Of a stretch of 64,000 bases of DNA, positions 12,001 to 39,925 are shown in pieces (within the stretch, counting starts at the first letter, position 1; every line of letters starts with the position of its first letter). Source of the DNA: a bacterium. Its GTDB lineage: Bacteria > Pseudomonadota > Alphaproteobacteria > Sphingomonadales > Sphingomonadaceae. The notes below the pieces were generated by a model. The model was not told where the DNA came from and did no database searches. It saw only the letters and a list, made by a program, of their open reading frames with translations. The stretch is from NCBI GenBank assembly GCA_030824575.1, contig JAVBXL010000020.1, positions 1 to 64,000 of the forward strand. The letters run 5' to 3'. The translations under genes were made by a program, and so were the position numbers.

Positions 12001-12030
12001 AAAAAAAAGGGCCGATCCGAAGATCAGCCC
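12001..12030 (-). terminator. Rho-independent terminator, TTCG tetraloop plus T8
   Basis: GGGCTGATC TTCG GATCGGCCC TTTTTTTT on minus strand. Confidence 0.85.
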
Positions 12031-12135
12031 GAAAAGTTTTAGGAGAGGATGCCTGAAAGGCCCGATCTTATTGCCCGCTCCCGCTTCATGCTGCAAATGC
12101 GAAGGGCGTAAGAGCAATTGCACGATACGCAATCG
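12001..12135 (-). ncRNA. Candidate trans-acting sRNA copy 1 (anti-SD core, UUCG terminator, upstream palindrome)
   Basis: Minus strand: CGATTGC-N7-GCAATTG (12135-12115), N11, TTCGCATTTGC (12103-12093), 31 nt, core GCCTTTCAGGCATCCTCTCCTAAAACTT (12061-12034), hairpin GGGCTGATC-TTCG-GATCGGCCC then T8 (12030-12001). Same architecture as 19452-19579. Confidence 0.75.
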
Positions 12136-12153: not shown

Positions 12154-12564
12154 TCAAGCAAAAGCAAGACGACAGTTTCCAGTTCGATCCATAGTAAAAT
12201 CACACTTCTTCAGAATATCCATTCCTATCAGTGCACTAAAGTTTTCAGTCCCAGATAGAGATAGCCCGATGACTTCCTGAAAGATGAAAGGATAGGGCGA
12301 TTTCCAGCCGTCAGGATACACACCCATTCGGAACAGATAATGTTCGATGTGTGCCAGGCCATGTGCAGTCATGATAGGTCGTTTACCGACCGGCTGGAGG
12401 TCCAGCGATCGGGCAATATCTCCGTTGATACCGCTAACTGTTGCCCCAGTGTCTATCAGAGCGACCGCATCGACACTCGTCATGTCGGCAACATTGTCCG
12501 CACCAAGGATCTGGACGGGTAAAATTACCCGTCGACCGTTGTGCGTCCAATCAATTTGCCACAT
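12154..12564 (-). CDS. Retropepsin-like (clan AA) aspartic protease, single DTG
   Basis: MWQIDWTHNGRRVILPVQIL...VALIDTGATVSGINGDIARSLDLQPVGKRP...FSALIGMDILKKCDFTMDRTGNCRLAFA; ATG at 12564. Confidence 0.8.
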   Translation of the reverse strand: MWQIDWTHNGRRVILPVQILGADNVADMTSVDAVALIDTGATVSGINGDIARSLDLQPVGKRPIMTAHGLAHIEHYLFRMGVYPDGWKSPYPFIFQEVIGLSLSGTENFSALIGMDILKKCDFTMDRTGNCRLAFA

Positions 12565-12799
12565 GTGAGAAGAAGCCAAGATCGACCGGCTCTTCAATAA
12601 CTTCTTGAATGGAAAAAATACCATCGGGAAATTCGGTTTTCCCAAATCGGTAGGCAGTACCTGGTGCCTCAAAAAATCGCACCACGTGACGATTTTTCAA
12701 CAAGGCATATTGCCCTTTATGATGACTTAGAAACTGCGCCAGGTTCCGAGCGAAATAATCGTAATTCGCGTCGATCTCAGCGGCCAATGTCACGCTCAT
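12551..12799 (-). CDS. Small uncharacterised protein, DUF5678-like
   Basis: 82 aa (NYDYFARNLAQFLSHHKGQYALLKNRHVVRFFEAPGTAYRFGKTEFPDGIFSIQEVIEEPVDLGFFSHVAN); 3' end overlaps the protease start by 14 nt. Confidence 0.65.
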   Translation of the reverse strand: MSVTLAAEIDANYDYFARNLAQFLSHHKGQYALLKNRHVVRFFEAPGTAYRFGKTEFPDGIFSIQEVIEEPVDLGFFSHVAN

Positions 12800-19241: not shown

Positions 19242-19451
19242 GGCAGATCCTCTACTGGACATGATATTGGCCTTGATCGGTGGCGTTCGAACGCCCGACC
19301 GGCTGTTTGGACGCAGCCCGATTATCAGGATTGTGGTTAAATTCCAGTGAGCGGATCGCCCGATTCATCGCATTTCCGCGGCTATGGGCGCATGCGGGAT
19401 GGCAAAACGCTACGGCAACAGGGCAGGACGGGGACCGGATCAAGACGAAAA

Positions 19452-19579
19452 AAAAGCCGCCCCGAAGGACGGCCTTGAAGTTTTAGGAGAGGATGCCTGA
19501 AAGGCGGGTTCCTTTTGCGGTGCAGCGCAGAGTGTCGCAAATGCGAAACATGGAGGGACGATTGCGTTTCCTGCAATCG
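19452..19579 (-). ncRNA. Candidate trans-acting sRNA copy 2 (paralogue of 12001-12135)
   Basis: Minus strand: CGATTGC-N7-GCAATCG (19579-19559), N11, TTCGCATTTGC (19547-19537), 31 nt, identical 28-nt core (19505-19478), hairpin GGCCGTCC-TTCG-GGGCGGC with T8. Confidence 0.78.
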
Positions 19580-19666
19580 TTATCTGGAGCTATGCTTTCC
19601 GTAAGGGAAAGTAGCGAGAGAAAACGGATTAACGATACCAAAGTATAAGAGGGATACAGGCGTTTT

Positions 19667-36913: not shown

Positions 36914-36943
36914 GGCGACGTTACGGAAAGCAGATGTTAAGCC

Positions 36944-36959: not shown

Positions 36960-37102
36960 AGAGCCGGATCATTCGGTCGTCAGCTGCGCCAAAAGGCGCA
37001 GAAAAGCTGGGCTCTATTGCCTTCGCCCTGCTGTGGCCGCATAATCACCCACAGTTCCGACGCGGCGAAAAGTCGCGCGGACCAGGAGAGGATTAGCCAA
37101 TC

Positions 37103-39925
37103 ATGACAGACAAGAATCTCTGGGCATCTGCCGCCATCGTCGCGCTGGCCATGAGTGCGGTCGCGGGCGCATCCGCCGCGCAAGCACAGGATGGAACGCA
37201 GGACGGCGTAGCGCCGCAACCAGTCGCCGACGATATGGGCGCCAACATCATCGTTACCGCCACCCGCCGTGCCAGCCCCTTGTCCGACGTGCCGATCGCG
37301 GTGTCGGCCGTGGGCGCGGCCGCCATGCAGAATAGCGGCGCGAGCGATATCCGCACGCTGAACCAGTTGGCCCCTTCCCTGCTCGTGTCCTCCACCGGGT
37401 CCGAAGCCAATGCGTCGGCGCGTATCCGCGGCATTGGTACGGTGGGCGATAATCCGGGGCTGGAAAGCTCGGTCGCGGTGTTCATCGACGGCGTCTATCG
37501 CTCGCGCACCGGGTCGGGCCTCAACGAACTGGGCGAGATCGAGCGGGTCGAGGTGCTGCGCGGGCCGCAGGGCACGCTGTTCGGCCGCAATGCGTCGGCG
37601 GGCCTGATCAACATCATCAGCAAGGCACCGGAAAACACCTTCCATGCCAAGGGTGAGATCACCTATGGCAATTATGATTATTGGCGGCTGTCGGGCCGCG
37701 TCACCGGGCCGATCGCCGATGGCATCGCGCTCAGTCTGGACGGCGTCTGGTCCAAGCGCGACGGCTTTTACAAGCTGGTCGATGGCACGGGCGCAACCGT
37801 CGGCGACACCAATGACCGTGACCGCTATTTCGTGCGCGGCCAGGCGCTGATCGAACCCAATGACGCGCTCTCCATCCGGCTGATCGGCGATTACACCAAT
37901 CGCGACGAAAGCTGCTGCGGCGCGGCCTATATCGAATCGCGCGAGCGGCGACCCGCAGCCGGCGGCGGCTATACCGACGCGCCGTTCAATCGCATCGCTG
38001 CGATCCTGGCGGGCCAGGGCAGCGTCATCCCGGCCGATCCCTATGATCGCGAACTCGCCACCACGCCGGGCCGCGACTATGTCAGCAAGCTCAAGGATTG
38101 GGGCGTTTCGGGCGAGATCAATTATAATTTCGGCGGCGCCAAGCTGACCAGCATCACCGCCTATCGCGATTACAAATCCCGCGACTATGGCGATTATGAC
38201 TATAATCGCGCCGACCTGCTATACCGCGATCCCAACACCTATCGCCAGTTCAAGACCTTCACGCAGGAATTGCGGCTTCAGGGGTCGGCTTTCGCCGATA
38301 AGCTCGACTGGCTAGTCGGCGGCTATTACGCCAATGAACGGCTGACGTTGCAGGATAATATCCGTTTCGGCGCGGACTATGGGCGCTTTGCGGCCTGTCG
38401 CCTGATGGCGGGGGCAAGCCTGAACAGCAATTTCACCGCCCCGCAACTCGCCGCCTGTGGCAGCGGCCTCGCCACCCAGCCGCTCATCAGCGGTACGCAG
38501 GCGAACCTCAACGCCGGGCTGACCGCCGCGCTGATCGCGCGTGGCGTGCCGGCAGCGATCGCGGCGGCGCAGGCCGGGGCGATCTCCACCGGGCTGGGCA
38601 ACGGCCTGCGTGCGCTGTCGGCGATTCCGTCGGGCACCGGCGACGTCGCGTCGCTCTACCGCCAGAAGAGCGAGAACTGGGCGCTCTTCACGCACAATAT
38701 CGTCCACATCACCAACCGGCTCGATCTGACCCTGGGCCTGCGCTACACCCATGAAAGCAAGCGCTTCTCGTCCGATTTCAACAACAACAACGCGACCTGC
38801 GCGGCGTTGCAGGCGTCCGGCCTGCCCGGCATCGCCACCAATCCGGCGCTGGGCAGCGCGGCGACGCTGGCGGGCGGCATCCTGACGCTGGGGTGCCTGG
38901 GCAATGCGTCCACCGGCCTCAATGCGCTCGACCTGAACGACAAGATCAGCGATGGCGAATTTTCCGGTACGGCGGTGCTGTCGTGGAAGCCGATCGACGA
39001 ACTGCTGCTCTATGGCAGCTATTCGAAGGGCTATAAGGCGGGCGGCTATAATCTGGATCGTTTCCAGCTGGGATCGACGGGTCTGAACGCCATTCCCGCC
39101 GTCTTTTCGCCGCGCACCAATGCCGACGTCGCCAGCCTGCGCTTCGCCGCGGAAAAAGTGGATTCGTTTGAGGTCGGCCTGAAATTTGCGCAGCCCAAAT
39201 GGAGCGTGAACATCGCCGCCTTCCGGCAGGAGTTCAAGAATTTCCAGCTGAACACGTTCAACGGCACCAGCTTCGTCGTCCAGAATATCAATGGCTGCGA
39301 CAGCGCGCTCAGCGCTGCGCGGACCTGCGACAGCGGCGACGTTGGCCCCGGCCTGATCAGCCAGGGCGTGGAGCTGGAAGCATCGGTGACCCCGGCGCGC
39401 AACTTCCGCGTGTCCGGCGGCGCAACCTATGCCCGTGCCAAATTCGCCAACCGGCTGGTCGGCAGCGGCAACGGCGCTGTGCCGCTCGACCCCGCGCTGT
39501 TCCTGTTGCCCGGATCGATCAACAGTAACGCACCGCAACTGGTCACGACCGCCAGTATGGCCTGGACCCCGGACATCGGCGCATCGGGCCTGTCGGCGCT
39601 TTTCTACGTCGATGGCCGCATGACCAGCGACTATAATACCGGGTCCGACCTGTTCCCTGAAAAGCGGCAGGACGGCTATGCCATCGTCAACGCCCGCGTC
39701 GGTATTCGTGGGCCGGACCAGCGCTGGGCGGTGGAGTTCTGGGGCCAGAATATCTTCAACCAGAATTATACCCAGGTCGCCTTCTCCAGCCCGCTCCAGT
39801 CGAGCAGCCCCGGCACGTCGACCACTGGCCAGTTCGGCCAAGGCGCGCCAATGGCGAATCAGCTGATCTCCGCTTATCTGGCCGAACCGCGCACCTATGG
39901 CATTACCCTGCGCGGGAGTTTCTAG
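37103..39925 (+). CDS. TonB-dependent receptor
   Basis: Signal peptide, NIIVTATRRASPLSDVPIAVSAV plug motif, C-terminal EPRTYGITLRGSF; SD AGGAGAGG at 37084. Confidence 0.95.
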   Translation: MTDKNLWASAAIVALAMSAVAGASAAQAQDGTQDGVAPQPVADDMGANIIVTATRRASPLSDVPIAVSAVGAAAMQNSGASDIRTLNQLAPSLLVSSTGSEANASARIRGIGTVGDNPGLESSVAVFIDGVYRSRTGSGLNELGEIERVEVLRGPQGTLFGRNASAGLINIISKAPENTFHAKGEITYGNYDYWRLSGRVTGPIADGIALSLDGVWSKRDGFYKLVDGTGATVGDTNDRDRYFVRGQALIEPNDALSIRLIGDYTNRDESCCGAAYIESRERRPAAGGGYTDAPFNRIAAILAGQGSVIPADPYDRELATTPGRDYVSKLKDWGVSGEINYNFGGAKLTSITAYRDYKSRDYGDYDYNRADLLYRDPNTYRQFKTFTQELRLQGSAFADKLDWLVGGYYANERLTLQDNIRFGADYGRFAACRLMAGASLNSNFTAPQLAACGSGLATQPLISGTQANLNAGLTAALIARGVPAAIAAAQAGAISTGLGNGLRALSAIPSGTGDVASLYRQKSENWALFTHNIVHITNRLDLTLGLRYTHESKRFSSDFNNNNATCAALQASGLPGIATNPALGSAATLAGGILTLGCLGNASTGLNALDLNDKISDGEFSGTAVLSWKPIDELLLYGSYSKGYKAGGYNLDRFQLGSTGLNAIPAVFSPRTNADVASLRFAAEKVDSFEVGLKFAQPKWSVNIAAFRQEFKNFQLNTFNGTSFVVQNINGCDSALSAARTCDSGDVGPGLISQGVELEASVTPARNFRVSGGATYARAKFANRLVGSGNGAVPLDPALFLLPGSINSNAPQLVTTASMAWTPDIGASGLSALFYVDGRMTSDYNTGSDLFPEKRQDGYAIVNARVGIRGPDQRWAVEFWGQNIFNQNYTQVAFSSPLQSSSPGTSTTGQFGQGAPMANQLISAYLAEPRTYGITLRGSF

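Follow-up and report, generated by a model that had tools for sequence, protein, structure and literature searches.

We identified two loci in the window (the whole 64,000-nt stretch of Sphingobium DNA analyzed here) that are likely to be genes for SuhB/MmgR sRNAs of about 60 nt, two of seven siblings with the same seed, which would repress TonB-receptor and catabolic genes via GGAGAGGA with the help of Hfq. A covariance-model search against Rfam matched both sites to RF00519 (suhB/MmgR, alpha-R8) with 58.2 and 46.7 bits, above the gathering score of 41 bits, so the family suspected in a sequence-only reading of this DNA was the right one. That reading also described a paralogous locus with two copies. 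The shared core holds, but the genome has seven siblings with this core rather than two.

The 28-nt core GCCTTTCAGGCATCCTCTCCTAAAACTT occupies 12061-12034 on the minus strand, and a sequence search bore out its exact second occurrence at 19505-19478 on the same strand, as read earlier. By our own estimate, an exact 28-nt repeat would be expected by chance in 64 kb with a probability of ~1e-7. The two loci comprise the following features:

12001..12061, minus strand: predicted sRNA copy 1 (61 nt); RF00519 58.2 bits, fold z -4.3
12034..12061, minus strand: invariant 28-nt core of copy 1, including the hairpin GCCUUUCAGGC (12061-12051); from sequence and alignment
12041..12050, minus strand: copy 1 seed AUCCUCUCCU, anti-Shine-Dalgarno and single-stranded; from sequence and fold
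12001..12030, minus strand: copy 1 intrinsic terminator with a 9-bp stem, TTCG loop and T8; stems of 8-11 bp in 32/32 aligned copies
19448..19505, minus strand: predicted sRNA copy 2 (58 nt), with the same core at 19505-19478; RF00519 46.7 bits, fold z -4.1

Copy 1 reads from a 5′ hairpin through the seed and a U-rich linker into the intrinsic terminator, with its 5′ end placed according to a -10-like element. The RNA at 12061-12001 folds with -21.7 kcal/mol (z = -4.3 relative to shuffled sequences). Both predicted RNAs (61 and 58 nt) have a small 5′ hairpin, the open stretch AUCCUCUCCUAAAACUU and a terminator, with z near -4, and both cores precede a stem-loop and T8. The terminator at 12030-12001 is as textbook as it had first appeared. 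The predicted length of copy 1, 61 nt, is that published for SuhB in Sphingopyxis granuli. The site had been placed between lolA and ftsK. The lolA side is correct, but a 172-aa ORF with weak similarity to aspartyl proteases (12154-12672, minus strand) separates the RNA from ftsK here. In S. psychrophilum, where this ORF is absent, the RNA directly follows the ftsK stop.

The genome (4.94 Mb on 223 contigs, to be read with caution given a contamination estimate of 8.9%) belongs to Sphingobium, and its nearest named relatives are Sphingobium psychrophilum and S. cupriresistens. It contains eight RF00519 copies above the cut-off, seven with exactly the same core. The eighth, the C110 sibling, adjoins the SapC gene (sapC) and carries the canonical alpha-R8 seed TCTCCTCCCTGAACC. 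All 61 of the 61 sampled Sphingobium genomes have 3-11 copies. Elsewhere in an order-wide sample of 151 genomes we found 0-5 copies, mostly 1-3, in a search that scored fewer candidates per genome than the Sphingobium search. We also found the sRNA, mostly in unannotated stretches, on 58 sphingomonad plasmids (e.g., NZ_CP005087.1 and NZ_CP016453.1), of which 26 are predicted to be conjugative. Carriage by phages was considered and rejected, as the phages searched gave no match.

The window RNAs have the alpha-R8 layout of a weak 5′ hairpin, a single-stranded CU-rich core and a Rho-independent terminator. The 10-nt core described as common to alpha-R8 RNAs, UUUCCUCCCU, is missing, and the window core is AUCCUCUCCU. 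Given this difference, we assign them to a variant subfamily of the known RF00519 family. They lie on the CU-rich side of the pairing and are distinct from CrfA-type RNAs, whose GA-rich stem-loop is complementary to the alpha-R8 core. In alpha-R8, one copy is usually, though not obligatorily, linked to an FGase gene (PMC12559287). Neither window copy has this linkage, one being near lolA and the other between genes for a phosphomannomutase and a FadL-type protein; the neighbor of the canonical copy is sapC.

Both window positions are syntenic in most named Sphingobium genomes (named lolA loci L060-L099). The alignments, with the window's own sequences included, comprise 32 sequences for copy 1 and 40 for copy 2. 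The hairpin and seed are invariant across these copies, and the terminators drift yet always form a stem of 7-11 bp with paired substitutions. Applied to a mixed paralogue alignment, RNAalifold recovered no more than the 5′ hairpin, as terminator lengths vary, and each sequence was folded singly instead. A small peptide encoded on the plus strand (AGGAGAGG-ATG-CCT...) had been named beforehand as the explanation of the conservation that would count against an sRNA, and this strand does read as a Shine-Dalgarno sequence followed by ATG. However, the frame closes at widely differing lengths, the two ortholog sets show 29 and 23 variants of residues 5-12, and it is the minus strand that agrees with the pairing and promoter boxes. 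As its frame varies so strongly in length and residues, the peptide does not explain the conservation, and we rejected it as highly improbable.

The sequence-only reading pointed to a complementary TonB-receptor leader in the same window. This leader reads AGGAGAGGATTAG at 37084-37096 on the plus strand, 6 nt ahead of the receptor ATG at 37103, and includes AGGAGAGGAT, which complements the seed perfectly over 10 nt:

37103..39925, plus strand: TonB-dependent receptor, predicted target; Plug domain
37084..37093, plus strand: predicted target site AGGAGAGGAT in the receptor leader; leader conservation, duplex -22.5 kcal/mol
36921..36929, plus strand: TTACGGAAA element upstream of the receptor; in 29/30 orthologues at <=1 mismatch, background 5/895

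Among 29 aligned Sphingobium receptor leaders, 28 have AGGAGAGGA and the remaining one reads AGGAGAGAAA; the site stays while neighboring bases change. In several smaller Sphingobium genomes (G041:C28, G053:C12 and G059:C3), an sRNA copy is located ~1 kb from the orthologue of this receptor.

We collected the leaders of 943 genes from ~1.1 Mb of the genome, along with further receptor starts. GGAGAGGA occurs in 19 of the 943 leaders, which makes it the commonest of 52 8-mers of the same composition. The next independent 8-mer, AGGGAGGA (9 leaders), complements the canonical seed of the eighth copy. According to Pfam, the GGAGAGGA leaders mostly belong to catabolic or uptake genes. They include genes for two Rieske oxygenases, two P450s, a ferredoxin, aldehyde and short-chain dehydrogenases, a GH43 protein, an arabinofuranosidase, a carotenoid-cleavage-type oxygenase, an MFS transporter and TonB receptors, whereas ten random control genes had more mixed functions. 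Across the genome, exact 10-nt matches to the seed complement show no clear enrichment, with 22 sites (seven of which are the sRNA genes) versus 13 for a reversed control. TonB receptors as a specifically enriched class were dropped, as anti-Shine-Dalgarno and permuted-seed controls scored equally well. Separately, short, perfect palindromes of the form ATCCTCTCC...GGAGAGGAT, containing seed and target sequence, occur at G000:C97:9197-9220 and, within a long frame (L015), at G000:C52:18349; they are possibly a palindromic repeat element.

The seed itself differs across the order. In families other than that of the window, the copies read GGGCGTTTCCTCCCTGAAC or close variants, which is the canonical alpha-R8 core (PMC12559287). 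In the window's family, Sphingomonadaceae as judged by its named relatives, almost every copy has GGCATCCTCTCC instead, and a few genomes, including the window's own, also retain a canonical copy. The change from UUUCCUCCCU to AUCCUCUCC in effect inserts one U into the CU core. From these sequences, it seems that the seed changed in a duplicate and that this duplicate multiplied into the predominant form in Sphingomonadaceae. In the 151 genomes, we counted leader motifs as motif + N3-12 + ATG. The counts for GGAGAGGA, AGGGAGGA and the neutral comparator GGAGGAGA are 1048, 490 and 722 in the window's family and 712, 810 and 736 in the other families. GGAGAGGA exceeds AGGGAGGA in 58/66 genomes of the window's family versus 32/85 others (AUC 0.83; genus-level p 2e-6, although the shift is that of one clade and one event, so that p-values overstate the evidence). 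One genus, g6 (G095, G141, G159, G179 and G182), is an exception, with more AGGGAGGA than GGAGAGGA leaders despite sRNA copies with the switched seed.

An anti-Shine-Dalgarno repressor, as first proposed, is supported by the invariant single-stranded seed, the conserved receptor leader, the over-representation in leaders and the studied relatives SuhB and SisA. The proposal was incomplete in that this seed differs from the canonical alpha-R8 seed. Each sRNA of ~60 nt would expose the seed AUCCUCUCC between a small 5′ hairpin and a U-rich stretch that leads into the intrinsic terminator. Together with Hfq, the seed would pair with GGAGAGGA Shine-Dalgarno sites of genes for alternative carbon sources, and their covering would keep TonB-receptor and catabolic genes from being translated as long as preferred carbon is at hand. 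By analogy, this covering most likely resembles the action of SisA and that reported for SuhB on thnR. Some co-regulation of the siblings may follow from their common promoter boxes, and copy 2 may in addition be linked to polyhydroxybutyrate status through a PhaR-type box.

Alternatively, the sRNAs could be genuine alpha-R8 members with few true targets, and GGAGAGGA in leaders a lineage-wide Shine-Dalgarno preference rather than the outcome of selection for pairing. In its favor, TonB receptors can be told apart from other genes with any CU-rich anti-Shine-Dalgarno sequence, the shift in leaders maps to one clade and is thus a single event, and g6 departs from it. Yet GGAGAGGA is a poorer Shine-Dalgarno sequence than AGGAGG-type words and still ranks first among the 8-mers of its composition, its matches are mostly at catabolic genes, GGAGGAGA shifts much less across genomes, and the receptor site is kept amid changing neighbors. 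We consider this alternative unlikely, though it deserves serious attention. It is considerably less probable still that the siblings are mainly decoys, or under a CrfA-like sponge, with indirect effects on targets. A precedent is CrfA, which sequesters SisA-D in Caulobacter (PMC12559287). Here, however, the search for a complementary RNA that stands alone and has a terminator gave none, the exact 10-mer sites in the genome and the 9-mer sites in intergenic regions (1.1 Mb) being otherwise accounted for. With no candidate among these exact sites, which a shorter match would escape, we rejected such a sponge. We favor direct repression of TonB-receptor and catabolic genes by the siblings.

Several known systems resemble the one proposed here. 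SuhB of Sphingopyxis granuli TFA represses thnR in an Hfq-dependent manner in carbon catabolite repression (PMC6563040) and shares the Rfam name, the 61 nt length and a sphingomonad host with the window RNAs. It was described as one sRNA, whereas there are seven same-core siblings here, and seed identity between the two is assumed. The Caulobacter crescentus RNAs SisA-D (PMC12559287) share the covariance family, the order of hairpin, seed and terminator, an anti-Shine-Dalgarno seed and TonB receptors among the targets. However, those four siblings have the seed UUUCCUCCCU, upstream regions without a common motif and the sponge CrfA to counteract them, whereas the window siblings have the seed AUCCUCUCC, common promoter boxes and no sponge that we could find. 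MmgR of Sinorhizobium meliloti, also RF00519, is associated with Hfq and repressed by AniA/PhaR through a YGCRNYGCR-type site (PMC7143759, PMC12542648), and such repression is possible for copy 2. In contrast to the siblings here, MmgR is a single copy with a phasin and PHB phenotype and no direct mRNA target known. The Vibrio Qrr RNAs (as described in PMC12559287) are likewise several dispersed, co-regulated siblings with one seed, but they belong to an unrelated family and act in quorum sensing.

The siblings share an upstream order of GATTGC-N7-GCAATC (box 1), TTCGCAnTTGC (box 2) and a -10-like element. The corresponding features in the window are:

12116..12134, minus strand: copy 1 promoter box 1, GATTGC-N7-GCAATT; alignment
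12092..12103, minus strand: copy 1 promoter box 2, TTCGCATTTGCA; alignment
12068..12073, minus strand: copy 1 putative -10-like CAATAA, 18 nt after the -35-like TTTGCA (12097-12092); not a consensus sigma-70 match
19596..19604, minus strand: TTACGGAAA element of copy 2, common to the TonB-receptor promoter; alignment
19560..19578, minus strand: copy 2 promoter box 1, GATTGCAGGAAACGCAATC; alignment and genome scan
19536..19547, minus strand: copy 2 promoter box 2, TTCGCATTTGCG; alignment and genome scan
19516..19524, minus strand: PhaR/AniA-type palindrome TGCACCGCA (YGCRNYGCR) upstream of copy 2; orthologue conservation

Among 61 copies of the family, 44 have box 1 and 49 have box 2, at fixed positions, and neither was found in 28 copies of other families. 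Genome-wide, four of the seven strict box-1 sites and five of the nine box-2 sites are at these sRNAs. A box-2 palindrome, TTCGCAATTGCG, is also present ~107-131 nt upstream of hfq in 25/25 Sphingobium (L365-L389; one with a mismatch in the second half), in most of them between a -35-like TGGACG and a -10-like TAGGAT. Box 2 was absent upstream of hfq at five loci of other families.

YGCRNYGCR adjoins the -10 element in 34/40 orthologues of copy 2 versus 0/32 of copy 1 (background 3%). This sequence forms the core of the motif reported for PhaR/AniA in S. meliloti, a species in which mmgR is under repression by PhaR (PMC12542648). The PhaR/AniA operator palindrome is thus present as a predicted site in the promoter of copy 2 only. 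We rejected boxes 1 and 2 as PhaR sites, as their GC spacings (N7 and N4) differ from the reported GC-N3-GC, and only the third box of copy 2 fits. Polyhydroxybutyrate granules sequester PhaR, so the copy-2 box would fit a rise in suhB transcription brought about by granules. Such a rise was reported in Sphingopyxis (PMC6563040).

Tentatively, and at somewhat less than even probability, we suggest that the alpha-R8 seed gave way to another in a duplicated branch within Sphingomonadaceae and that many Shine-Dalgarno sites of carbon-use genes shifted with it, that the siblings and hfq share an operator, and that a PhaR-type site on some siblings couples them to polyhydroxybutyrate storage. The switch from UUUCCUCCCU to AUCCUCUCC with leader motifs shifting along is apparently new. 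We found no prior report of the seed change or of the promoter element shared with hfq in the searchable literature, which leaves out most subscription journals, and an earlier description is possible. How an sRNA seed changes when it already has multiple targets is an open question in RNA evolution. As both seed forms occur in one genome and the matching leader motifs differ in abundance, the change is directly testable here. In Sphingobium, a major pollutant degrader, the siblings seem to restrain catabolic genes in general. If true, the link between hfq, its client sRNAs and the PhaR-type box would join a storage polymer, the RNA chaperone and catabolite repression.

Box-2 palindromes were also detected upstream of a TonB receptor (L153, G000:C184:4163) and a release-factor-2-like gene (L154, G000:C192:2445). 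The Hfq of Sphingobium is itself a tandem protein, as a single frame of ~170 aa (L365, G000:C16:11708-12151) holds two Hfq-like repeats, whereas one copy matches in other families.
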